Assembly (NCBI RefSeq): GCF_036250675.1
Contig: NZ_CP109592.1
Location: 4,588,001-4,652,000 of the forward strand
DNA length: 64,000 nt
Direction of reading: 5' to 3'
Source: Streptomyces sp. NBC_01689
Lineage (GTDB): Bacteria > Actinomycetota > Actinomycetes > Streptomycetales > Streptomycetaceae
The notes under the pieces are model-generated. The model saw nothing but the letters and a program-made list of their open reading frames with translations. It was not told the origin of the DNA and did no database searches. Both the position numbers and the translations under genes were made by a program. Positions 2,618 through 48,915 of this stretch are shown piece by piece; position 1 is the stretch's first letter, and each line of letters begins with the position of its first letter.

Positions 2618-3372
2618 GCCGGCATCACGGCGGGAACGTCCCCGTCGGGTCCTTTGCCGTTGTTCTCCTGGGCGGCCTGGGCGGCGGCACCGGCCTGTGC
2701 CTCGGCCTCCTCGCCGGCCTTGCGCTGCTCGTGGAAGGCGAGGATCTGGAGCTCGATCGAGAGGTCGACCTTGCGCACGTCGACGCCGTCCGGGACGGAC
2801 AGGACGGTCGGCGCGAAGTTCAGGATGGAGGTGACCCCGGCGGCGACCAGCCGGTCGCAGACCTGCTGGGCCACGCCCGGCGGGGTGGTGATGACGCCGA
2901 TGGAGACGCCGTTCTCGTCGATGATCTTCTCCAGGCCGTCGCTGTGCTGCACGGCGATGCCCGCGACCTGCTTTCCGGCCATCTCGGGGTCGGCGTCGAT
3001 CAGCGCGGCGACCCGGAAGCCGCGGGACGCGAACCCTCCGTAGTTGGCCAGCGCGGCGCCGAGGTTTCCGATGCCGACGATCACTACCGGCCAGTCCTGG
3101 GTCAGGCCCAGTTCGCGGGAGATCTGGTAGACGAGATACTCGACGTCGTACCCCACACCGCGCGTCCCGTAGGAGCCCAGGTAGGAGAAGTCCTTGCGCA
3201 GCTTCGCGGAGTTGACCCCCGCCGCGGCCGCGAGCTCCTCCGAGGAGACCGTGGGGACCGAGCGCTCCGACAGTGCGGTGAGGGCTCGGAGGTACAGCGG
3301 AAGACGGGCGACGGTGGCCTCGGGAATTCCTCGGCTGCGGGTCGCCGGTCGGTGAGTTCGGCCAGTTGCCAC
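2614..3372 (-). CDS. rex: Redox-sensing transcriptional repressor Rex
   Basis: Homodimeric repressor that leaves DNA when NADH/NAD+ rises, linking respiration genes to redox state. With the GTG at 3372 it has 252 residues: a winged helix (about 20-70, including NSAKLRKDFSYLGSYG), a Rossmann domain with VGIGNLGAAL (99-108), and the C-terminal swap helix LSIELQILAFHEQRKAGEE. The GTG is preferred over the upstream in-frame ATG (3585) because AGGAG lies a few bases upstream and the known family start is VATGR/MATGR. First gene of the rex-hemA-hemC operon, and likely autoregulated through the operator at 3450-3465. Confidence 0.97.
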   Translation of the reverse strand: MATGRTHRPATRSRGIPEATVARLPLYLRALTALSERSVPTVSSEELAAAAGVNSAKLRKDFSYLGSYGTRGVGYDVEYLVYQISRELGLTQDWPVVIVGIGNLGAALANYGGFASRGFRVAALIDADPEMAGKQVAGIAVQHSDGLEKIIDENGVSIGVITTPPGVAQQVCDRLVAAGVTSILNFAPTVLSVPDGVDVRKVDLSIELQILAFHEQRKAGEEAEAQAGAAAQAAQENNGKGPDGDVPAVMPA

Positions 3373-3449
3373 GGTGCTCCTGCGGGTAGAGCGGGGCTGC
3401 AGGCGGTCACACGTACCTAGACCGCCCCGTCGAATGCAGGCTATGTCTT

Positions 3450-3465
3450 TGTGAACGCGTGCACA
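3450..3465. promoter_or_regulatory. Rex operator (ROP) over the rex-hemA-hemC promoter
   Basis: The 16-mer TGTGAACGCGTGCACA matches the Rex operator type (TGTGAACGCGTTCACA-like) and sits in a larger inverted repeat, 3447-3468, with 7-bp perfect outer arms CTTTGTG/CACAAAG. On the minus strand a -35-like TTGTGC (3466-3461) and a -10-like TAGCCT (3443-3438) are 17 bp apart, so the operator covers the -35 and spacer. Consistent with autorepression. Confidence 0.9.
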
Positions 3466-3492
3466 AAGATGGTGTCCGATTTGCCCGGGCAA

Positions 3493-3508
3493 CGTGACGG
3501 GGGTCACG
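3493..3508. promoter_or_regulatory. Crp-like inverted repeat upstream of rex
   Basis: Perfect 6-bp inverted repeat CGTGAC-GGGG-GTCACG. It fits the Streptomyces Crp motif as I know it, GTG(N6)GNCAC. It lies about 25 bp upstream of the Rex operator, in a plausible activator position. Binding is inferred only. Confidence 0.4.
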
Positions 3509-3692
3509 CATGCCCGGCGCGCGGGTATGGAACCAGCGCGCGGACAGCTTCGTTCCGCACCTGAAGGGGGCAAAGCCGTACACACTCCTCAACGAATCCC
3601 GCCCCCGAGACCAATCGCCGTCGATCCTAGGCGACTTTCCGGACCACCTGGACTGCTCGGTCAGGACGGACTCGGGCCGCGTCCCGGCGTCG

Positions 3693-4028
3693 CTACGAGG
3701 CCAGGGCCTTGCGCAGACGCCCCTCGTCCACCTTCCAGAACGTGTGCTGCGCGCCGTCCACCAGCACAACGGGGATCTGCTCCCAGTACGCGCGGTGCAG
3801 TTCCTCGTCCTGCGTGATGTCCTTCCCCTCCCACGGCACGCCGAGGTCCCCACACACCTTCTCCACCACTTGTTGTGCGTCATCACACAGATGACAGCCG
3901 GGCTTCCTGATGAGGGTGACCGACCGCTCACCCGGAGCCACCGCCTCCGCCTTCTCGGCCTTCTCCGGCCTCCGCACCCGCTCGGCCTTCTCCGTACGGC
4001 GCTCACCGCGCCCGAACATGGGACTCAT
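3693..4028 (-). CDS. Glutaredoxin-family thiol-disulfide protein
   Basis: Thioredoxin-fold protein of 111 residues with a redox CxxC motif (RKPGCHLCDD, Cys45 and Cys48 counted from the ATG at 4028) and the cis-Pro region IPVVLVDG. About 35 N-terminal residues are charged and Lys/Glu/Arg-rich, a tail unusual for a glutaredoxin. An in-frame ATG at 4037 and a longer ORF to 4088 are alternatives; 4028 has GGGAGA about 10 nt upstream. It is directly upstream of rex, and the same order occurs in mycobacteria near hemA. The substrate is unknown. Confidence 0.85.
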   Translation of the reverse strand: MSPMFGRGERRTEKAERVRRPEKAEKAEAVAPGERSVTLIRKPGCHLCDDAQQVVEKVCGDLGVPWEGKDITQDEELHRAYWEQIPVVLVDGAQHTFWKVDEGRLRKALAS

Positions 4029-4225
4029 ACCGGCCATTCTCCCGCCGCGGGCGCCCCATGGGCCCCCCTTCGGCGCGCAAGGCGACAACCGGCCCCGGAC
4101 ACGGGCTCCGACGCGCCGATCGGAAACGCCGCGGACCCCTTCTTTAACGGCTCGGTCGCGGAGAGTTCACAGCCTCGAACCCTCGCGACTCCGGTACCAC
4201 CGAACAAACTGGCTATGCTCACGCC

Positions 4226-5170
4226 ATGGCCGCTCTCGGATGGCTCACTCCCCGTAGGCGCTCCGCCACCGCGCGGAGCGTGTTGGCAGGCGAGGCCTCG
4301 GCGGAGGCAGCGCGCAAATCCTCGCGGGAACTGGAGGAACTGGCCCACGACGCCGAACCGGACGTCCCCGAGCACGAACCGGACTTCCCGGTGCTCGGCG
4401 ACGACAAGGCCGCCGCCTTCTTCGACCTGGACAACACCGTCATGCAGGGCGCCGCGCTCTTCCACTTCGGACGGGGCCTGTACAAGCGGAAGTTCTTCGA
4501 GACCCGCGATCTCGCACGGTTCGCCTGGCAGCAGGCGTGGTTCCGGCTGGCCGGGGTCGAGGACCCCGAACACATGCAGGACGCCCGCGACTCGGCGCTG
4601 TCGATCGTCAAGGGCCACCGGGTCGCCGAGCTGATGTCCATCGGCGAGGAGATCTACGACGAGTACATGGCCGAGCGCATCTGGCCCGGCACGCGCGCCC
4701 TCGCCCAGGCCCACCTGGACGCGGGCCAGAAGGTGTGGCTGGTCACGGCCGCCCCGGTCGAGATCGCGACGGTGATCGCCCGCCGCCTGGGACTGACCGG
4801 CGCGCTGGGCACGGTCGCGGAGTCGGTGGACGGCGTCTACACCGGCCGGCTGGTCGGCGAGCCGCTGCACGGTCCGGCGAAGGCGGAGGCGGTCCGCGCG
4901 CTGGCCACGGCGGAGGGCCTGGACCTCACGCGGTGCGCGGCCTACAGCGACTCGCACAACGACATCCCCATGCTCTCCCTGGTCGGTCACCCCTACGCGA
5001 TCAACCCCGACGCCAAGCTGCGCAGGCACGCGCGTGCCTGCGAATGGCGGCTGCGGGACTACCGCACAGCGCGCAAGGCCGCGAAGGTCGGCATCCCGGC
5101 GGCGGCCGGGGTCGGCGCGGTGGCCGGCGGCACGGCGGCGGCCATCGCCCTCCACCGCCGCCGCCGCTGA
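4226..5170 (+). CDS. HAD-IB family hydrolase (SerB-like phosphatase)
   Basis: 314 residues. HAD motif I is FFDLDNTVM (nucleophile Asp67, acid/base Asp69), motif II is the Thr in LVTAAP, and motif IV is [12 protein letters not shown]. The cap region resembles the phosphoserine-phosphatase-like HAD-IB group. The C-terminus has an Ala/Gly-rich hydrophobic stretch followed by HRRRR, a possible membrane anchor. An N-terminal tail of about 60 acidic residues precedes the HAD core. The actinobacterial homologue beside hemA is often called serB1, but the substrate is not established, so a serine-synthesis role is not assumed. Confidence 0.88.
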
Positions 5171-35990: not shown

Positions 35991-36923
35991 CTACACCGTC
36001 TCCATCTGGTCCAGGCGGCGCAGGATGACGCCCTCCCGCAGCGCCCACGGACAGATCTCCAGTGTCTCCACCCCGAAGAGGTCCATCGCCCCCTCCGCGA
36101 CCATCGCCCCCGCGAGCAGCTGCCCCGCCCGCCCCGGGGAGACTCCGGGAAGCTCCGCCCGCTCGCCCACCGTCATCGAGGCGAGCCGCGGCACCCAGTC
36201 CTGCAGCGAGCGCCGCTTCAGCTCCCGCTGCACGTACAGCCCGTCCGTGGAGCGTGCCGCCCCGGCCAGCCGGGCGAGCTGCTTGAAGGTCTTGGAGGTG
36301 GCGACGACGTGGTCGGGGGCACCGAACCGGCTGAACTCCCCCACGGTACGGGCGATCTGGGCCCGGACATGGCGCCGCAGCGCCTTGATCTCGGCCGGGT
36401 CGGCGGGGTCGGTCGGCAGCCAGCCCGCGGTCAGCCGCCCCGCGCCCAGCGGCAGCGACACCGCGGCGTCCGGTTCCTCGTCCAGGCCGTACGCGATCTC
36501 CAGCGATCCCCCGCCGATGTCGAGGACCAGCAGCTTCCCGGCGGACCAGCCGAACCACCGGCGGGCGGCCAGGAACGTCAGCCGGGCCTCCTCCGCGCCG
36601 GTCAGCACCTGGAGCTCGACACCGGTCTCGGTCTGCACCCGGGCCAGGACCTCGTCCGCGTTGCTGGCCTCACGCACGGCGGAGGTCGCGAACGGCAGCA
36701 TCGCCTCGACCCCCTTGTCCTCGGCGGCCTCCAGCGCGTCCCGGACCGTCTCGATGAGTTTGTCGACACCGTCGGAGCCGATCGCCCCGCTCGCGTCGAG
36801 CAGTTGGGCGAGCCGCAATTCGGCCTTGTGCGAGTGCGCGGGCAGCGGGCGCGCGCCAGGGTGTGCATCCACCACCAGCAGGTGCACCGTGTTCGAACCC
36901 ACGTCGAGGACACCGAGTCTCAT
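35991..36923 (-). CDS. Ppx/GppA-family phosphatase
   Basis: 310 residues from the ATG at 36923. ASKHA fold with phosphate-1 motif [19 protein letters not shown] and phosphate-2 [14 protein letters not shown]. Exopolyphosphatase or pppGpp phosphohydrolase are the family activities; short single-domain actinobacterial members are often exopolyphosphatases, so the exact one is open. The ATG is 7 nt after a -10-like TAGCGT (36936-36931), suggesting a leaderless transcript divergent from the cysteine-rich gene. Confidence 0.88.
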
Positions 36924-36994
36924 GTACGGAACGCTACTGCGACCGGGGCCGCCCGCCGTCCCCGGAGCCGCCTCCGGCGACTTACCCTGGACGC
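36924..36994. promoter_or_regulatory. Divergent pair of leaderless-type promoters
   Basis: Only 71 bp separate the divergent starts at 36923 (ATG, minus) and 36995 (GTG, plus). TAGCGT (36936-36931, minus) is 7 nt from the ATG and TTACCCT (36982-36988, plus) is 6 nt from the GTG. Neither start has a ribosome-binding site. Confidence 0.6.
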
Positions 36995-37855
36995 GTGCCA
37001 AAGACGAAAAAGGCGAAGCCTGACAATTCGACCAAGGGTTCTTCGCAGGCGAAGGCCACGAAGTCCAAGAAGTCCCCGAAGGCGGCGCCGGCGACGGCCG
37101 CGGCGGCCGACGAGAAGGGGCTCGACTTCGCGCGGGCATGGGTGGAGTTTCCGGATCCCGCCGATGACGAGCAGGTCTTCCGGTGCGATCTGACATGGCT
37201 GACCTCTCGCTGGAACTGCATCTTCGGCAGCGGCTGCCAGGGCATCCAGGCCGGCCGCGCCGACGACGGCTGCTGCACGCTGGGGGCCCACTTCTCGGAC
37301 GAGGACGACGAGAAGCGGGTGGCCGGACACGTGGCGAGGCTCACGCCGGACATCTGGCAGCACCACGACATCGGCCTGGAGACGGGCTGGGTGTCGCAGG
37401 ACGAGGACGGCGAGCGCCAGACGCGCCCGTACCAGGGCTCGTGCATCTTCCAGAACCGGCCCGGATTCGCCGGCGGCGCGGGCTGCTCGCTGCACATCCT
37501 GGCGGTCAAGGAGGGCCGCGAGCCGCTGGAGACCAAGCCGGACGTGTGCTGGCAGCTGCCGGTGCGCCGCACGTACGAGTGGATCGACCGGCCCGACGAC
37601 ACCCGGGTGCTCCAGGTCTCGATCGGCGAGTACGACCGCCGCGGCTGGGGTCCGGGCGGCCATGACCTGCACTGGTGGTGCACGTCGGCGACCTCGGCGC
37701 ACGGAGCGGGCGACCCGGTGTACGTCTCGTACCGTCCGGAGCTCGTGGAGCTGATGGGCAAGGCCGGGTACGACCGGCTGGTGGAGCTCTGTGAGCAGCG
37801 GCTGGCCGCGCAGCTCCCCCTGCTCGCACCGCATCCCGCGGACCCGGTCGCCTGA
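36995..37855 (+). CDS. Conserved cysteine-rich protein of unknown function
   Basis: 286 residues from the GTG at 36995. The N-terminal 40 residues are Lys/Ser/Ala-rich ([20 protein letters not shown]) and look disordered. The body has Cys at 64, 75, 81, 93, 94 and more later ([36 protein letters not shown]), a layout suggesting bound metal or an Fe-S cluster, like DUF3109-type proteins. No experimentally known role comes to mind. Ends 3 bp from the convergent gene. Confidence 0.7.
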
Positions 37856-37858
37856 CCG

Positions 37859-39610
37859 TCAGGACGGGACCGGGTCGTCGGTGCCCGCGGGCGGCGGGGC
37901 CGACCCGCCGGGGTCCGACGGGTGCGAGTCCGTGGGGGTGGGTGTCGGGGACGGGCCGGTCGGTGTCGGCGACGGGTCGGGTGAGGGCGTCGCCGAGCCG
38001 GGGCCGGACGGCGTGGGGGCGCCCGTCCCCTGGCCGGACCCGGACCCCCCGGGCGCGGACGGGCGCGCGTTCCCGTATCCGCCGATGGTGACCACGGCGC
38101 CCGCGGGCGCGATCGCCACCCGCGCGCTCCAGGCACCCACCGGCTGGCGGAGCTGATCGACGTACACCTTGACCGTCACGGTCTCCCCGGGGGCGATCGT
38201 GCCCGACGACCGGCTCAGGTAGAGCCAGGGCGCTCCGGAGCGCGCGGACCAGTGGACGGGTGAACTCCCGGACGCGGTCAGGGTGATGAGGGTGGTGTCG
38301 CCGCTGCCCGTGGCCCGCACGGAGAGCTGTCCGGCGGCGCTGCCCGCGCCCGCGGCGCTGGTGACCTCCACCGACACGTCGGGCGTGCCGTCGCTCTTGG
38401 CGAAGCGGTGGCCGGGTCTGGTGCTGGCGTTGCCCGCGTTCTCGTAACCGCCCCCGCCCGTGCCGTCGATGCCGTCGTGGCCGTGCGCCTCGCTCGCGGT
38501 GGCCGGGCGCCCGTCCGCGCCCTCCCCGGTGAGGGGCGCGCCGCGGTAGGCCGCCCAGAGGGCGAGCACAGGCGCGGCGACGACGGTGGCGACGACGGTC
38601 GTGGTGACGGCGCGCGCCCGCAGCCGGTCCCGGCGGGCGGCCCGGTCCTTGGGGTCCATCGGGAAGCCGCGCCGGTCGAAGCGCGGCGCGGCGGCGCCCC
38701 GGGTCCGCGGGGCGTGCGCCAGCGCGACGTGCAGGGCGGCGCGCGGGGCCTGCAGGACGGGGAGCGCGGCGGGCGTGACGCTCGTGCCCGGCCAGGTACC
38801 GGGCGCGGCGCGCTCGGCCGTGCGGCGGCAGCGCGGGCAGTCGTCGACGTGCCGGACGAGCTCGCGGCGCAGCCCGGCGCTCAGGACCAGCCGGCTGTCG
38901 CCGGTGAGGCGGGCGACGCTCGGGCAGGTGCCGGTCTCGACGACGGCGAGCGCGGCGCGGGTGCGTTCGACCTCGCAGGCGGCGGAGGCGAGCAGCTCAC
39001 GCGCCTTCGTGGTGTCCATGCCGAGGACGGCGGCGACCTCGGGGGCGGCGAGCTGGTGGCGGACGGCGAGTTCGAGCGCCTCCCGCTGCTCGGGGGTGGT
39101 CCCGGCGGCCTCCGGCCAGGCCAGCAGGGCGAGTTCGCGCTGTCGCAGGGTCCGGACCTCGTCCGAGACGGGGACGGCGAGCGCCTCGGCCGCGCGCCGG
39201 TCGGCGGCCTCCTTCTCGCCCTTGGCGGTCGCGGGGCGCCCGGAGGCGTGGGTCGCCTGGTGTCTGCGCCGGGCCTCGGCGAGCCCCCGCAGGCAGGACC
39301 AGCGGGCGAGCGCGTACAGCCAGGCCCGGCGGTCGTCCGGGGAGTCCGGGCCGCGCTGGCCCCGGCGGTCGGCGAGGGCGAGGACGTCACCGAGCGCGAC
39401 GGTGGCCGCGTCGTGGTCGCACAGCACGGACAGGCAGTAGGTGAACAGGCCGTCCAGATAGGGCTCGTAGCGCGCGGGAGGGTGCTGGGCCATCGTGCGG
39501 GCCGCTGCGCCACGGGACAGTGCCACCCGCTTGCGCGCCGCGCCGTGCGCCCGGTGTGCGCCGGTGGTGTGCGTGGTGTGTGTCGAGGTCTCCGGACTGC
39601 TGCTCATCAC
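37859..39610 (-). CDS. Membrane protein fusing sigma-like, zinc anti-sigma-like and BACON domains
   Basis: 583 residues (a second Met lies one codon in). About 45-110 resembles sigma region 2 (YLDGLFTYCLSVL, RAWLYALARWSCLRGL), and about 174-212 resembles region 4 (EQREALELAVRHQL, EVAAVLGMDTTKARELL). At 254-261 HVDDCPRC fits the HxxxCxxC anti-sigma zinc motif. One membrane helix is at about 334-354, then a BACON domain (about 408-505, with VTSAAGAGSAAGQLSVRATG and WLYLSRSSGTIAPGETVTVK) and a Pro/Thr-rich tail. All of this is one unbroken frame. Function unknown. Confidence 0.8.
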   Translation of the reverse strand: MMSSSPETSTHTTHTTGAHRAHGAARKRVALSRGAAARTMAQHPPARYEPYLDGLFTYCLSVLCDHDAATVALGDVLALADRRGQRGPDSPDDRRAWLYALARWSCLRGLAEARRRHQATHASGRPATAKGEKEAADRRAAEALAVPVSDEVRTLRQRELALLAWPEAAGTTPEQREALELAVRHQLAAPEVAAVLGMDTTKARELLASAACEVERTRAALAVVETGTCPSVARLTGDSRLVLSAGLRRELVRHVDDCPRCRRTAERAAPGTWPGTSVTPAALPVLQAPRAALHVALAHAPRTRGAAAPRFDRRGFPMDPKDRAARRDRLRARAVTTTVVATVVAAPVLALWAAYRGAPLTGEGADGRPATASEAHGHDGIDGTGGGGYENAGNASTRPGHRFAKSDGTPDVSVEVTSAAGAGSAAGQLSVRATGSGDTTLITLTASGSSPVHWSARSGAPWLYLSRSSGTIAPGETVTVKVYVDQLRQPVGAWSARVAIAPAGAVVTIGGYGNARPSAPGGSGSGQGTGAPTPSGPGSATPSPDPSPTPTGPSPTPTPTDSHPSDPGGSAPPPAGTDDPVPS

Positions 39611-40038
39611 CCGTGCGACCGTAGGTGCCCGACGGCGACCCCTTCTTCCCCCTTGAGCATATTTAATCCGTACGGGTGAAACGATCCCTCATAAGGGGAC
39701 ACCGGCCTCCGATTCCGTGGCCTGGACCTCCACGGGCGGCGACGGACGGGGGGCGCGCGACGGTTCCCGCCCGGCGGACGCCCCCGGCGCGGCCGACGTG
39801 ACGGGGAGCGGGCCGGCACCGCCGCCCCCGCGGCCGGAAGGGGACCGGCGACGGCCTCGCGGCCCGGACCGAGACCGGACCGGACGCGGCACGGAGCCGC
39901 ACGGAGCGGGACCGGACCCCCGGCACGGAGCCGCACGGAGCCGCACTGGCACCGAAATGTCGGCGGACATGACAGCGGGGCAGGGCGGCGGACATGACGG
40001 CCGGCCGCGTTGTCGGTGGCCTCGGCTACGGTTCGGTC
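39611..40038. other. Divergent intergenic region with short GC-rich repeats
   Basis: 428 bp. No gene is supported. Contains a repeat GGCACGGAGCCGCACGGAG-like unit at about 39888-39906 and 39922-39940, plus several GGACC/CCGGACC runs. A TACGGT at 40027-40032 is 6 nt before the radA ATG, so radA may be leaderless. Confidence 0.5.
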
Positions 40039-42789: not shown

Positions 42790-43626
42790 TCAGTCCTGCG
42801 ACAGCACGAACGAGGTCCGTGCCTTCGCCAGCCCCGGCGCCTTCGCCTCCACCAGGTAGGTGCCCGTGGGCGCCGAACCCGCCGGGGGCGTCGCGCACTC
42901 GGGGGCGCTGGCGGTGCGGTCCCAGTCCACCGTGTAGGTCGCCTGACCGCCGGCCGGAACACGGAAGAAGAGGCTGGAGGCGTCCTTGGGGCAGTCCGCG
43001 GAGGACCAGAAGCTCTTGTCCTTCCCGGCCTGAGTGACCGTCAGGACGGCCTTCTTCGGGCCGAGATCGACCTTGCAGTCGCCGCTGGAGGAGTTCTTCG
43101 CGATCAGCTGGATCGAGGGCTTGGCGCCCGGACCGTACGAGTTGTGGACGCTGCGGAGGGTCAACTTGACCGCGCCGGGTGTGCAGTTGGGGAGAGTGGA
43201 GCCGGCCGGGACCTGATCCGCGGAACCCGCGGAGCCCCCCGATCCGGCGCCTCCGCCGTTGGCGTCGTCGTCCGAGCCGCCGGTGCCGCCGCCGTCGGCG
43301 CCGCCGGAACCGTTCCCGTCACCGGACCCGCCGTCGCCGCCGGTGCCGCCGCCGTTGCCGCCGCCCGCGTTCGCGCTGCCGCTCGACTCGTCGCGTCCGC
43401 CCGGGTGTTGGCTTATCGCCGGGCCGGATCCCGAGGGGCCCGGGGTGATCGTCTCCACCGGGCTCTTCCCGTTGGAACCGTCCGCGCCCTTCTTCCCGCC
43501 GCCTCCGCCGCTGACGATCCAGACCGTCAGGAGCGCCAACAGCGCCACCAGAGACAGCAGAACGGCCCTCCGACGCCAGTAGATGGTGGAGGGTAGCGGC
43601 CCGACCGGATTGCGCAGAGATCCCAC
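42790..43626 (-). CDS. Membrane-anchored protein with Gly/Ser-rich linker and extracellular domain
   Basis: 278 residues from the GTG at 43626 (VGSLRNPVGPLPSTIYWRRR); the open frame runs to 43704 but those extra residues lack family character. One N-terminal membrane helix (about 19-39) precedes a Gly/Asp/Ser-rich linker of about 100 residues. The extracellular part contains two Cys pairs and a beta-rich fold (LTLRSVHNSYGPGAKPSIQL, SADCPKDASSLFFRVPAGG). Resembles Streptomyces DUF4232-like secreted proteins. Function unknown; convergent with disA. Confidence 0.7.
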   Translation of the reverse strand: MGSLRNPVGPLPSTIYWRRRAVLLSLVALLALLTVWIVSGGGGGKKGADGSNGKSPVETITPGPSGSGPAISQHPGGRDESSGSANAGGGNGGGTGGDGGSGDGNGSGGADGGGTGGSDDDANGGGAGSGGSAGSADQVPAGSTLPNCTPGAVKLTLRSVHNSYGPGAKPSIQLIAKNSSSGDCKVDLGPKKAVLTVTQAGKDKSFWSSADCPKDASSLFFRVPAGGQATYTVDWDRTASAPECATPPAGSAPTGTYLVEAKAPGLAKARTSFVLSQD

Positions 43627-43786
43627 GGCGCAAACTGTACGAGAGATCGGGGCCGGGGCTTGCCCCACCCGCCGCCCTGGGACCCAACTTTTCCGGATCA
43701 TCATCTCGGCAGCCCGGTTCCTGCCTGTTTTTCGCCCCCGCCGCCCCTACCCGACCCGTCCCCCGGAGCTCCGCCCCGGACCCCGC

Positions 43787-45104: not shown

Positions 45105-45364
45105 AGACGGTCGCCCCGCGAACCGCACCTCACCAAAACATCCCCAACACGGACATGTGACCGCCGCGCGTCACCCGCCTCCTCCCTCCGTTACACAACC
45201 GACGTACAGCCGAGTGCTCCTCGCAGGCTGTCTCGGACAACCCCGTGACAACGCCTCCGTAGCTTCATTGCCGTACCGCACGCACAGCGGATCGACAGCG
45301 GTACGGAAGCGACGGACACAACCGGCAGCAGGCGGGTCGGAAACGGGGATGGAGGCGGTTGATC
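45105..45364 (+). promoter_or_regulatory. Upstream region of the sigE operon
   Basis: 260 bp between mutY and sigE. Here the operon promoter must lie; in S. coelicolor it is CseB-dependent. I see a pair of GACAACxCC repeats near 45236 and 45247 but no confident -35/-10 pair. Confidence 0.4.
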
Positions 45365-45916
45365 ATGGCGCACGGCGAGGTGCTCGAATTCGAGGAGTAC
45401 GTCCGCACCCGGCAGGACGCGCTGCTGCGCAGTGCCCGTCGCCTGGTCCCCGACCCCGTGGACGCCCAGGACCTGCTGCAGACCGCGCTCGTCCGCACCT
45501 ACGGCCGCTGGGACGGCATCGCCGACAAGCGGCTGGCCGACGCCTACCTGCGCCGCGTGATGATCAACACCCGGACCGAGTGGTGGCGCGCCCGGAAGCT
45601 CGACGAGGTCCCCACCGAGCAGCTCCCGGACGCCCGCGTCGAGGACTCCACCGAGCAGCACGCGGACCGCGCGCTCCTCATGGACATCATGAAGGTGCTC
45701 GCTCCGAAGCAGCGCAGTGTCGTGGTGCTGCGACACTGGGAGCAGATGTCCACGGAGGAGACGGCCGCCGCGCTCGGCATGTCGGCCGGAACGGTCAAGA
45801 GCACGCTGCACCGGGCGCTGGCCCGGCTCCGCGAGGAGCTGGAGAGCCGGGACCAGGAGGAGCGCGGTGCCCGCGCGCTCGAACCGGGTAAGGAGCGGGA
45901 GCGTTGCGCGGCCTAG
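45365..45916 (+). CDS. sigE: ECF sigma factor SigE (cell-envelope stress)
   Basis: Directs the envelope-stress regulon of Streptomyces. 183 residues from the ATG at 45365, which has GGAGG 9 nt upstream (a TTG six bases earlier is too close to it). Sigma-2: FEEYVRTRQDALLRSARRL, DLLQTALVRTYGRWD; sigma-4: LAPKQRSVVVLRHWEQMSTE, TVKSTLHRALARLREEL. First gene of the sigE-cseA-cseB-cseC operon; it overlaps cseA by 13 nt. No anti-sigma gene follows: control comes from the CseB/CseC two-component system. Confidence 0.96.
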   Translation: MAHGEVLEFEEYVRTRQDALLRSARRLVPDPVDAQDLLQTALVRTYGRWDGIADKRLADAYLRRVMINTRTEWWRARKLDEVPTEQLPDARVEDSTEQHADRALLMDIMKVLAPKQRSVVVLRHWEQMSTEETAAALGMSAGTVKSTLHRALARLREELESRDQEERGARALEPGKERERCAA

Positions 45917-46563
45917 GAATTCGGGCCAGGAGGGCCGGCCGGGTACTGAAGGCGGGGAGTGCGGCGACGGCCGCGCTCGCCGCCCTCGGCCTTTTCCTGA
46001 CCGCCTGCGCCACCGGGGGGACGGGCGCCCGTGACGAGGGCCCGGCGGGCAGCGAGGCGGTGGCCAAGGCCCCCACGACGCCCACCGCCTCCCCCTCGCC
46101 GACGAAGGCGGCCAAGCGGGTGGACGTGGTCAAGCTCGTCAAGGACGACCCCGAGGTCAGTGCGTCGGTCAAGAGCGCCCTCAAGCCGTGCGTGGCCGAC
46201 GAGTACCCGGTCGACGTGTCGTACGGGGAACTGACCGGCGGCCCCGCGGACGACGTCGTCGTCAACGTGATGACCTGCGGAGACGCGGTGGGCATCGGCT
46301 CGTACGTGTACCGCGAGGAGAAGGGCCGGTACGAGAACGTCTTCAGGACCGAGGAACCGCCGGTCTACGCGGAGATCGACCGGGGCGATCTGGTGGTCAC
46401 CCAGCAGCTGTACAAGAGGGGCGACCCGGTGTCGTACCCCTCCAGCGAAGAAGTGATCACCTACGGCTGGTCGGCGACCCGCTTCACCGAGAAGTCGCGC
46501 ACGCACAACGACTACAGCAACGCGGTGGGCGCCACCGCCACCCCCGCCCCCGCCGCGAACTGA
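45904..46563 (+). CDS. cseA: CseA lipoprotein, negative modulator of the sigE system
   Basis: 219 residues from the TTG at 45904, with AAGGAG 8 nt upstream. Lipoprotein signal ALAALGLFLTACATGG, Cys lipidated after LTA. The Ala/Thr-rich linker leads to a folded domain (LKPCVADEYPVDVSYGELTG). In S. coelicolor CseA lies outside the membrane and dampens the CseB/CseC response. Overlaps the sigE 3' end by 13 nt. Confidence 0.94.
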   Translation: MRGLGIRARRAGRVLKAGSAATAALAALGLFLTACATGGTGARDEGPAGSEAVAKAPTTPTASPSPTKAAKRVDVVKLVKDDPEVSASVKSALKPCVADEYPVDVSYGELTGGPADDVVVNVMTCGDAVGIGSYVYREEKGRYENVFRTEEPPVYAEIDRGDLVVTQQLYKRGDPVSYPSSEEVITYGWSATRFTEKSRTHNDYSNAVGATATPAPAAN

Positions 46564-46592
46564 CGAGCAGACGGAGCAAACGGAGCAGCCGG

Positions 46593-47303
46593 ATGGCAGA
46601 CCAGACCCACGTCCTCTTCGTGGAGGACGACGATGTGATCCGCGAGGCCACACAACTCGCGCTGGAGCGCGACGGCTTCGCGGTCACGGCCATGCCCGAC
46701 GGCCTGTCGGGGCTGGAGGCGTTCCGGGCGGACCGCCCCGACATCGCGCTGCTGGACGTCATGCTCCCCGGTCTGGACGGCGTCAGCCTCTGCCGTCGCA
46801 TCCGCGACGAGTCCACGGTCCCCGTGATCATGGTGTCGGCGCGGGCCGACTCCATCGACGTCGTCCTCGGCCTCGAGGCGGGCGCCGACGACTACGTGAC
46901 CAAACCCTTCGACGGGGCCGTACTGGTCGCCCGCATCCGCGCGGTGCTGCGGAGGTTCGGGCACGCGAGCGGCGCGAACGGGGGGACGGACGCGCCCTCG
47001 CCGGTCGACGGCGGCCTGCTCTCCTTCGGGGACGGTGAGCTGGAGATCGACACCGAGGGCATGGAGGTGCTCAAGGGCGGGGTGCCGGTCGCGCTGACCC
47101 CCACCGAGATGCGGCTGCTGCTGGAGTTCTCGTCCGCGCCGGGCACGGTGCTGAGCCGCGACAAGCTGCTCGAACGGGTGTGGGACTACGGCTGGGGCGG
47201 TGACACCCGCGTCGTCGACGTCCATGTCCAGCGGCTGCGGACGAAGATCGGCCAGGACCGGATCGAGACGGTCCGCGGTTTCGGCTACAAGTTGAAGGCC
47301 TGA
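46593..47303 (+). CDS. cseB: Response regulator CseB (OmpR/PhoB type)
   Basis: 236 residues from the ATG at 46593, 29 nt after cseA. The receiver domain has acidic pocket VEDDD, phospho-acceptor Asp55 in ALLDVMLPG, and Lys in VTKPFD. The C-terminal winged helix ends in the usual DTRVVDVHVQRLRTKIG and RIETVRGFGYKL. It activates the sigE promoter when phosphorylated by CseC. Confidence 0.95.
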   Translation: MADQTHVLFVEDDDVIREATQLALERDGFAVTAMPDGLSGLEAFRADRPDIALLDVMLPGLDGVSLCRRIRDESTVPVIMVSARADSIDVVLGLEAGADDYVTKPFDGAVLVARIRAVLRRFGHASGANGGTDAPSPVDGGLLSFGDGELEIDTEGMEVLKGGVPVALTPTEMRLLLEFSSAPGTVLSRDKLLERVWDYGWGGDTRVVDVHVQRLRTKIGQDRIETVRGFGYKLKA

Positions 47304-47310
47304 GCGGGAT

Positions 47311-48915
47311 ATGCGGGGGAAGTTCCAGCGCCGGGAGCCGGCGGGCGACGGCGGACCGGTCACCGGCTCCGGTGACCTCGGCCGACCGGGCGGCGCGCAC
47401 GTCCCGTGGGACGGCGGCCGGCCCGCCGGGCCGGGTGAGGTGTCCCTCCGCGGCGTCGGTGGCGGTGCCGGGCAGGGCGTGACCGGTGGCCGGACGGGGG
47501 CTGCCGGTCGTGGGTCCGGCGGGTTCACCGACGGTGCGCGCCGGGGCACGGAAACGGGTGCGGGTGCGGGTGCCGGGAGAGCCGGCCGCGGTGGCCGGTT
47601 CGCCGAGGCCGGGCTCACCGGTATGCGCACCGGGATCCGCTGGAAGCTGAGCGCCGCCATCGCCCTGGTCGGCGCCCTCGTCGCGGTCGCGCTGAGCCTC
47701 GTCGTGCACAACGCGGCACGCGTCTCGATGCTCGACAACTCGCGTGACCTGGCGGACGAGCGGATCCAGGTCGCCCAGCGCATGTACGAGTCCGGCCGCA
47801 CCCAGTCCTTCGGGGTCAAGGTCGACGACCCGACGATCCCGGGGGACCTGCTGGCCAAGGTAGAACAGGGCCGCCGGGCCACCTACGTGGCGGACCGCCC
47901 CAACGGCGTGCCGGACATATGGGCGGCCGTCCCTCTCAAGGACGGCCGCGTCCTCTCGCTCCACACCGGGTTCACGGACCGCAACACCGACGTCATGAAG
48001 GACCTCGACCAGGCACTGATCATCGGTTCGATCGCGGTCGTCTTCGGCGGCAGCGCCCTCGGCGTGCTGATCGGCGGTCAGTTGTCGCGCCGGCTGCGCA
48101 AGGCCGCGGCCGCCGCGAACCAGGTCGCCAAGGGTGACACCGACGTCCGGGTACGGGAGGCGATCGGCGGGGTCGTGCGCGACGAGACCGACGATCTGGC
48201 GCGGGCGGTGGACGCCATGGCGGACGCGCTCCAGCAGCGCATCGAGGCCGAGCGCCGGGTGACCGCCGACATCGCGCACGAGCTGCGCACACCGGTCACG
48301 GGACTGCTGACCGCGGCCGAACTGCTGCCCCCCGGCCGCCCCACGGAGCTCGTCCGGGACCGGGCGCAGGCCATGCGCACGCTCGTCGAGGACGTCCTGG
48401 AGGTGGCCCGGCTTGACGGTGCCTCCGAGCGGGCCGAGTTGCAGGACATCATGCTCGGCGAGTTCGTCGCGCGCCGGGTGGCCGCCAAGGACCCCGACAT
48501 CGACGTACGCGTGATCCACGAGTCGGAGGTCACCACCGATCCGCGGCGCCTGGAACGGGTTCTGTTCAACCTGCTGGCCAACGCGGCACGGCACGGCAAG
48601 CCGCCGATCGAGGTCTCCGTGGAGGGCCGCGTCATCCGTGTCCGCGACCACGGTCCCGGGTTCCCCGAGGAACTCCTCGCCGACGGCCCCAGCCGCTTCC
48701 GCACCGGCAGCAGCGACCGTTCGGGCCACGGCCACGGGCTGGGTCTGACCATCGCGGCGGGTCAGGCGCGGGTGCTCGGCGCGCGGCTGACCTTCCGCAA
48801 CATCCGGCCCGCCGGCGCCCCGGTGCACGTGGCCGCGGAGGGCGCGGTCGCGGTGCTGTGGCTGCCGGAGCACGCACCCACGAACACGGGCAGCTTCCCT
48901 CTGCTGCCGGCGTGA
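47311..48915 (+). CDS. cseC: Sensor histidine kinase CseC
   Basis: 534 residues, starting 7 nt after cseB. The first about 104 residues are Gly/Arg/Ala-rich and low complexity. Membrane helices are at about 112-133 and 235-256, with an extracytoplasmic sensor between, a HAMP region after (GQLSRRLRKAAAAANQVAKG), HisKA with His323 in IAHELRTPVTG and a catalytic domain (LLANAARHGKPP, VRDHGPGFP, GHGLGLTI). An in-frame ATG at 47623 would remove the tail and is an alternative start. Confidence 0.93.
   Translation: MRGKFQRREPAGDGGPVTGSGDLGRPGGAHVPWDGGRPAGPGEVSLRGVGGGAGQGVTGGRTGAAGRGSGGFTDGARRGTETGAGAGAGRAGRGGRFAEAGLTGMRTGIRWKLSAAIALVGALVAVALSLVVHNAARVSMLDNSRDLADERIQVAQRMYESGRTQSFGVKVDDPTIPGDLLAKVEQGRRATYVADRPNGVPDIWAAVPLKDGRVLSLHTGFTDRNTDVMKDLDQALIIGSIAVVFGGSALGVLIGGQLSRRLRKAAAAANQVAKGDTDVRVREAIGGVVRDETDDLARAVDAMADALQQRIEAERRVTADIAHELRTPVTGLLTAAELLPPGRPTELVRDRAQAMRTLVEDVLEVARLDGASERAELQDIMLGEFVARRVAAKDPDIDVRVIHESEVTTDPRRLERVLFNLLANAARHGKPPIEVSVEGRVIRVRDHGPGFPEELLADGPSRFRTGSSDRSGHGHGLGLTIAAGQARVLGARLTFRNIRPAGAPVHVAAEGAVAVLWLPEHAPTNTGSFPLLPA

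Follow-up and report, generated by a model that had tools for sequence, protein, structure and literature searches.

A Streptomyces membrane protein in which a worn-down ECF sigma factor is fused with a zinc inhibitor of its own and with a beta domain on the outside

PhyR, a soluble response regulator, carries a sigma-like domain that is derived from a sigma factor, has dropped transcription and acts as a sigma mimic. In three groups of actinobacterial sigma factors, ECF48, ECF52 and ECF53, a zinc finger and membrane helices belong to the same polypeptide, and release by proteolysis is expected; SCO4117, which is called the sole ECF52 member in S. coelicolor, influences both antibiotic production and sporulation (PMC8999054, PMC5826349). 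ECF52 is described there as a sigma part followed by a zinc finger, a membrane helix, a Pro-rich stretch and an outside carbohydrate-type domain, which is NPCBM. In ECF57, two cysteines possibly link sigma2 and sigma4 (PMC8999054), and WD40-like repeats are described for members of that group. As reported for IutY of Pseudomonas putida (ECF243), which serves iron-siderophore signalling, a sigma factor and a membrane anti-sigma form one protein, from which proteolysis frees the sigma part. Class I anti-sigma domains bind sigma4 by helix 1 and sigma2 by a linker-joined fourth helix, as coevolution work describes (PMC7406223).

The window, that is the whole 64,000-nucleotide stretch of DNA that was analysed, carries a gene whose product, a membrane protein, combines a worn-down sigma factor with its zinc inhibitor and with a beta domain on the outside (Table 1). 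The frame opens with GTG and has ATG as codon 2; in addition to the parts listed, the protein has a conserved juxtamembrane stretch before the membrane helix and a variable outside linker after it. The initial annotation had placed sigma-like, zinc anti-sigma, membrane and BACON parts in a single polypeptide, and both the frame and the domain evidence support this. Hydropathy analysis agreed with the one membrane helix that it had proposed, since just one segment rose above a Kyte-Doolittle value of 1.6 (windows of 19 residues beginning at 332-337), and its N-terminal flank is basic. BACON_2 was the sole Pfam model over its cut-off in the window protein (30.3 bits against 25) and was found in 26/26 members scanned (E up to 0.01). 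The structural model of residues 38-515 used 26 rows and had a mean pLDDT of 52; it was poor outside the BACON part (about 76-90 from residue 428), the best PDB matches of which were the GH115 enzymes 4zmh and 6nps; the extracellular BACON-type domain is thus borne out by a confident fold model as well. Thinning at 82% identity left 25 of the 80 orthologue loci in alignment A4.

Table 1. Positions of the fusion gene, its parts and the upstream element in the window.
Feature	Coordinates	Strand	Evidence
Whole CDS	37859..39610	-	583 aa; single full-length match in own genome; 80 orthologous loci (best 80 of 391)
Degenerate sigma2-like region, residues 45-115	39266..39478	-	BLASTP to L108; profile-profile to ECF rows
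Variable linker between sigma2-like and sigma4-like regions, residues 116-160	39131..39265	-	mean identity 56%, dN/dS 0.60
Sigma4-like region with net-negative recognition helix, residues 161-224	38939..39130	-	BLASTP to L108, profile-profile, charge count
Zinc anti-sigma (zf-HC2-like) domain, residues 228-264	38819..38929	-	invariant C229, H254, C258, C261
Cys64 in sigma2-like region, Streptomyces-specific in sample	39419..39421	-	81/81 vs 0/15 non-Streptomyces fusions
Cys212 in sigma4 recognition helix, Streptomyces-specific in sample	38975..38977	-	81/81 vs 0/15 non-Streptomyces fusions
Candidate anti-sigma fourth helix, residues 290-298, low confidence	38717..38743	-	modelled helix, pLDDT ~40
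Membrane helix, residues 334-354	38549..38611	-	hydropathy; dN/dS 0.043, lowest of the parts
Extracytoplasmic BACON-type beta domain, residues 409-515	38066..38386	-	BACON_2 E 4e-7; pLDDT ~76-90 (428-515); 4zmh
Pro/Ser/Thr/Gly-rich tail, residues 516-583	37862..38065	-	sequence; variable
Upstream element, 27 bases, nearly invariant in 81 Streptomyces sequences	39662..39688 (about -80 to -52)	-	conservation

Searches with the window protein by itself gave weak sigma signals. None of the Pfam sigma models reached its cut-off, and the NCBIfam sigma matches over residues 36-216 ranged from E 1.5e-4 to 0.2, with PRK12513 (E 1.5e-4, residues 92-204) and PRK08241 (E 3.6e-4, residues 36-216) lying far below the curated cut-offs. 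The search of 40 genomes of the class yielded a match in 7, 3 of them Streptomyces, and among the matches was L108, which aligned with the window protein at 34% over 280 aa (BLASTP, E 2e-30) and passed the Pfam cut-offs for Sigma70_r2 (E 6.1e-11) and Sigma70_r4_2 (E 4.5e-7). When a six-sequence profile was run against 118 genomes, 72 were matched at E <=1e-8; scores of at least about 117 bits belonged to the Streptomyces family and to fusions from 11 genomes in 7 other families, the fusion G056:C9 scored 73 bits, and the other matches, all below 60 bits, were ECF-type proteins, including the other Streptomyces fusions L147 and L148. Profile-profile comparison (hhalign) of the Streptomyces family with 8 of the 12 ECF rows (L133, L135, L138 and L139 omitted) gave a probability of 97.4% and E 1.1e-11, and comparison with five fusions gave 99.3% and E 9.5e-21. 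The intermediate L108, the profile search and the profile-profile E of 1.1e-11 show at the sequence level that the protein goes back to an ECF-type sigma factor in fusion with a zinc anti-sigma, a membrane helix and a beta domain on the outside; the region-2-like and region-4-like segments noticed at the outset are weak in the window protein alone and firm by way of L108 and the profile-profile comparison. L148 (1477-4500, minus strand) is a Streptomyces sigma/zinc/membrane fusion whose C-terminal end resembles a CAP/SCP domain by eye.

The HxxxCxxC motif that had been reported (His254, Cys258, Cys261) is present, and a fourth ligand, Cys229, completes the zinc set C-x24-H-x3-C-x2-C. All four residues were invariant in the 81 aligned Streptomyces sequences and in 15/15 non-Streptomyces fusions, so that the motif held across orthologues. 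Shuffling of the window protein produced HxxxCxxC in 39/20000 cases and the four-residue set in 3/20000. The zf-HC2 model remained below its cut-off in the window protein (E 0.041, 14.4 bits against 22.2) and 75 of the 81 members matched it at E up to 1 (best 0.011); the protein has the Hx3Cx2C motif with an upstream Cys that marks class I zinc anti-sigma domains. The model of residues 44-330, built from 81 rows, had a mean pLDDT of 64, with about 51-69 in sigma2, 75-82 at residues 174-233 and 61-84 in the remaining zinc domain. In this model the likeness of the sigma4 part to solved sigma4 domains was at noise level, and no sigma2 domain was among the PDB matches listed for the sigma2 part (pLDDT about 51-69).

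Actinobacterial fusions (L108, L143, L151, L152, L153, L155 and others) are homologous to the window protein over the sigma, zinc and juxtamembrane parts, and those named here, unlike the Streptomyces form, have sigma2 over the cut-off. Among ten proteins scanned, the sigma2 cut-off was passed by L143, L147, L151, L152, L153 and L155 and not by L124, L144, L149 and L150, while BACON_2 was found in two, L152 and L153. Each of these two, which represent two other families, has Sigma70_r2 (2.3e-14 and 5.6e-13, respectively) and BACON_2 (7e-13 and 3.4e-7) over cut-off in a single frame, and the zinc motif and a membrane helix lie in between. The Streptomyces member L124, from genome G128, keeps the inside module and has no BACON match. 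Judging from these domain matches, the inside module of the fusions is constant and the outside part varies. In L143, from another family, two sigma/zinc/membrane fusion genes with Pro-rich outside parts lie in tandem (1267-2619 and 2878-4269, plus strand). L110 (1185-2622, plus strand) is a 479-aa frame that matches the sigma2 part only and has a Pro/Ser/Thr-rich C-terminal half; a zinc-type motif was searched for in it and not found, and it is possibly a further reduced relative.

The fusion layout, which the initial annotation regarded as undescribed, is not new, because ECF48, ECF52 (SCO4117) and ECF53 fusions are already in print (PMC8999054, PMC5826349). By these descriptions the window protein resembles ECF52 in the order of its parts and can be set beside ECF48 and ECF53, which have a similar sigma/zinc-finger/membrane layout; it may be likened to IutY in the same way. 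The outside domain differs from that of ECF52, being BACON with no NPCBM match. An ECF52-like protein is encoded in the same genome by a separate gene, L094 (Sigma70_r2 1.7e-11, zf-HC2 3.3e-5, NPCBM 9.8e-28), and it matched the window protein at E 5e-4 only. Assignment of the window protein to ECF52 was rejected since it has neither a Sigma70_r2 nor an NPCBM match and L094 has both. Assignment to PhyR was likewise rejected, the PhyR_sigma-like model giving 13 bits (E 0.091) against a cut-off of 27 and the receiver domain of PhyR having no Pfam match in the window protein.

Analysis of the 81 Streptomyces members, cut to the sigma and zinc parts, revealed Sigma70_r2 in 0/81, Sigma70_r4_2 weakly in 40/81 and PhyR_sigma-like, always far below its cut-off, in 66/81, each at E up to 1. 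Signature residues were compared between 29 Streptomyces rows and 15 fusions of other genera. Position 74 was G in 27 and A in 2 of the Streptomyces rows and H (7), Q (4), R (3) or A (1) in the others; position 77 was L in 29/29 against F (8) or L (7); and position 104 was W in 29/29 against N in 7 and otherwise G, S, Q, T, A or F. The net charge of the recognition helix (199-214) was -1 to -3 in all 29 Streptomyces rows and +1 to +3 in 12 of the 15 others, the exceptions being L109 (0), L149 (0) and L150 (-2). Positions 74, 77 and 104, in regions 2.2 and 2.4, and the recognition helix are presumably those of RNA polymerase and promoter contacts. Region 2.3-2.4 (93-118) had a net charge of +5 to +10 in the Streptomyces rows and 0 to +6 in the others, and W97 and R103 were invariant in both. 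Seven cysteines were invariant in 81/81, namely three zinc ligands, C59 and C106, which are common to most relatives, and C64 and C212, which occur in 0/15. That sigma2 and sigma4 each hold a conserved cysteine is a possible parallel to ECF57 as described (PMC8999054). In the alignments the Streptomyces form has lost the residues that are typical of regions 2.2 and 2.4 as well as the positive charge of the recognition helix, and the remark that its sigma-like part seemed degenerate was well founded.

The sigma2/sigma4 module is nevertheless under purifying selection and is plainly not drifting, because dN/dS was 0.18 in sigma2 and 0.117 in sigma4, as estimated by a rough counting method from 500 random pairs of the 81 sequences; the suggestion of a retired sigma factor is ill-matched with these values. 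Among the other parts dN/dS was 0.043 in the membrane helix, 0.24 in the juxtamembrane stretch, 0.25 in the zinc domain and the N-tail, 0.37 in BACON, 0.49 in the tail and 0.60-0.62 in the two linkers. In the phylogenetic tree of 37 rows the seven Streptomyces rows formed a starred clade on a stem of 1.18, with long-branch warnings, and this clade nested in a group of 25 rows (90/92, not starred) made up of 22 fusions plus three further ECF rows. Only the sigma-to-zinc part of L148 and L094 entered this tree, gen_L133 covered 27% of the columns that were kept, and a flag was set on several long branches. Little change was seen within the Streptomyces clade after the long stem, and the picture is one of a burst of change followed by freezing.

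The genus sample of 41 genomes, among them that of the window, gave matches in 39, and several of these are partial; the two genomes with no match are fragmented assemblies (630 contigs at 79% completeness and 740 contigs at 98%). The species-genome scan gave 391 stretches encoding a relative, and because the best 80 of the 391 were taken, all 80 of them Streptomyces, the alignment leans to close orthologues. Among these best 80 of 391, all 62 loci of at least 9 kb carried radA, in divergent orientation, and the hypothetical gene found at 36863-37855 in the window. The latter (plus strand) is convergent with the fusion gene and was matched neither by Pfam at E up to 1e-3 nor by NCBIfam at E up to 1e-5. 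The order gene-radA-disA-mutY-sigE-cseB was observed in 6 of the 7 longer stretches read. Domain models label the neighbours as RadA and DisA equivalogs, a HhH-GPD base-excision protein, a response regulator and a histidine kinase, for which we assume the names MutY and Cse. For a further hypothetical gene between disA and the mutY-like gene (42790-43704, minus strand), NCBIfam gave no match at E up to 1e-5. About 6 kb from the fusion gene, at 45359-48915 (plus strand), a SigE-family ECF gene (SigE-fam_strep over cut-off), a response regulator and a histidine kinase form a sigE-cseABC-like cluster. In L164, from Streptomyces genome G128, radA, disA and mutY are present and neither sigE nor cseB was matched in the stretch read; the window query had no match in L164 at E 1e-10, and the profile search places a member (L124) in G128. 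The upstream element is, from its conservation, probably a promoter or operator, and no second copy was detected in the genome at up to 3 mismatches. RadA of S. coelicolor is given as SCO3351 (PMC3897704), and because of this the S. coelicolor orthologue of the fusion gene is probably SCO3350. The literature searched, which covered subscription journals in part, contained no paper on the fusion protein and no mention of SCO3350.

We give about an even chance (roughly 0.5) to the reading that the fusion protein is a membrane-held pseudo-sigma which signals by protein contact, as the sigma-like domain of PhyR does. The sigma2/sigma4-like module would have lost promoter reading and would instead clamp, by protein binding, the anti-sigma domain of the same polypeptide. 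A signal received by the outside domain, be it a wall polymer, a glycan or an envelope protein, would pass by way of the highly conserved membrane helix and open or cut the clamp, and the anti-sigma domain or sigma mimic thus freed would bind a partner sigma or anti-sigma; the linked SigE as that partner is a guess from position only. The sigma ancestry shown through intermediates, Sigma70_r2 in 0/81, PhyR_sigma-like in 66/81 (far below cut-off), the replaced signatures, the net-negative recognition helix, C64/C212, the low dN/dS, the invariant zinc ligands and the long stem argue for this reading. Against it count the variability of positions 74, 77 and 104 among the 15 relatives too, the report that ECF52 SCO4117, of like architecture, regulates development, the PhyR-model matches below cut-off and a sigma2 fold that lacks model support. 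Sigma2 may still contact DNA, because region 2.3-2.4 is basic and W97 and R103 are invariant.

It is possible, if rather unlikely, that the protein is instead a divergent ECF sigma factor that still works, akin to ECF48/52/53, with the fused zinc domain holding it back until regulated proteolysis frees it on an outside signal. It shares the architecture of ECF52, whose proteolytic release is proposed in the literature (PMC8999054, PMC5826349), its relatives L108, L143, L151, L152, L153 and L155 have sigma2 over the Pfam cut-off, the basic region 2.3-2.4 with W97 and R103 is kept, and the module is strongly conserved. The replaced signature positions, the recognition helix negative in 29/29 and the sigma2 model in 0/81 speak against it, and the single-copy upstream element gives no sign of a shared regulon, although this element need not be the protein's target. 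The self-inhibited sigma factor first suggested is made less likely by the loss of signature residues and by a recognition helix that is net negative. Quite improbable, in our estimate, is a membrane anti-sigma acting in trans, in which the sigma-like part caps a zinc domain that on signal captures another sigma factor, such as SigE about 6 kb off. The invariant zinc set and the gene order kept in 6/7 stretches fit such a role, as does the description of S. coelicolor sigma-E as having no anti-sigma; the same source describes sigma-E as controlled by transcription through CseBC (PMC6767563), linkage alone is weak with radA-disA-mutY in between, and the stretch read in L164 has no sigE/cseB, though its genome has a member. 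That the sigma module is a mere folded anchor and that the outside BACON and tail act at the cell wall is very unlikely, since, for all the degenerate sigma signatures and the BACON match in 26/26 members scanned, the sigma parts are more constrained than BACON (dN/dS 0.18 and 0.117 vs 0.37) and the Streptomyces member L124 retains the inside module with no BACON match.

New here is a variant, present in most sampled Streptomyces, whose sigma part lacks presumed marks of promoter reading, bears an extra cysteine pair and is strongly conserved. A bolder version of the pseudo-sigma reading, which we hold to be doubtful, is that of a Streptomyces-wide class in which the C64/C212 pair, gained after the loss of promoter reading or along with it, would together with the zinc site lock or sense the state of sigma2/sigma4 and an envelope signal would be relayed by partner switching with other sigma or anti-sigma proteins. 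L152 and L153, with intact sigma2 and the same BACON layout, permit a direct comparison of before and after. If the pseudo-sigma reading is true, Streptomyces would possess a conserved regulator in the membrane that derives from a sigma factor and has ceased to read promoters, a membrane-bound counterpart of PhyR mimicry in which a sigma factor has been turned into a protein switch.
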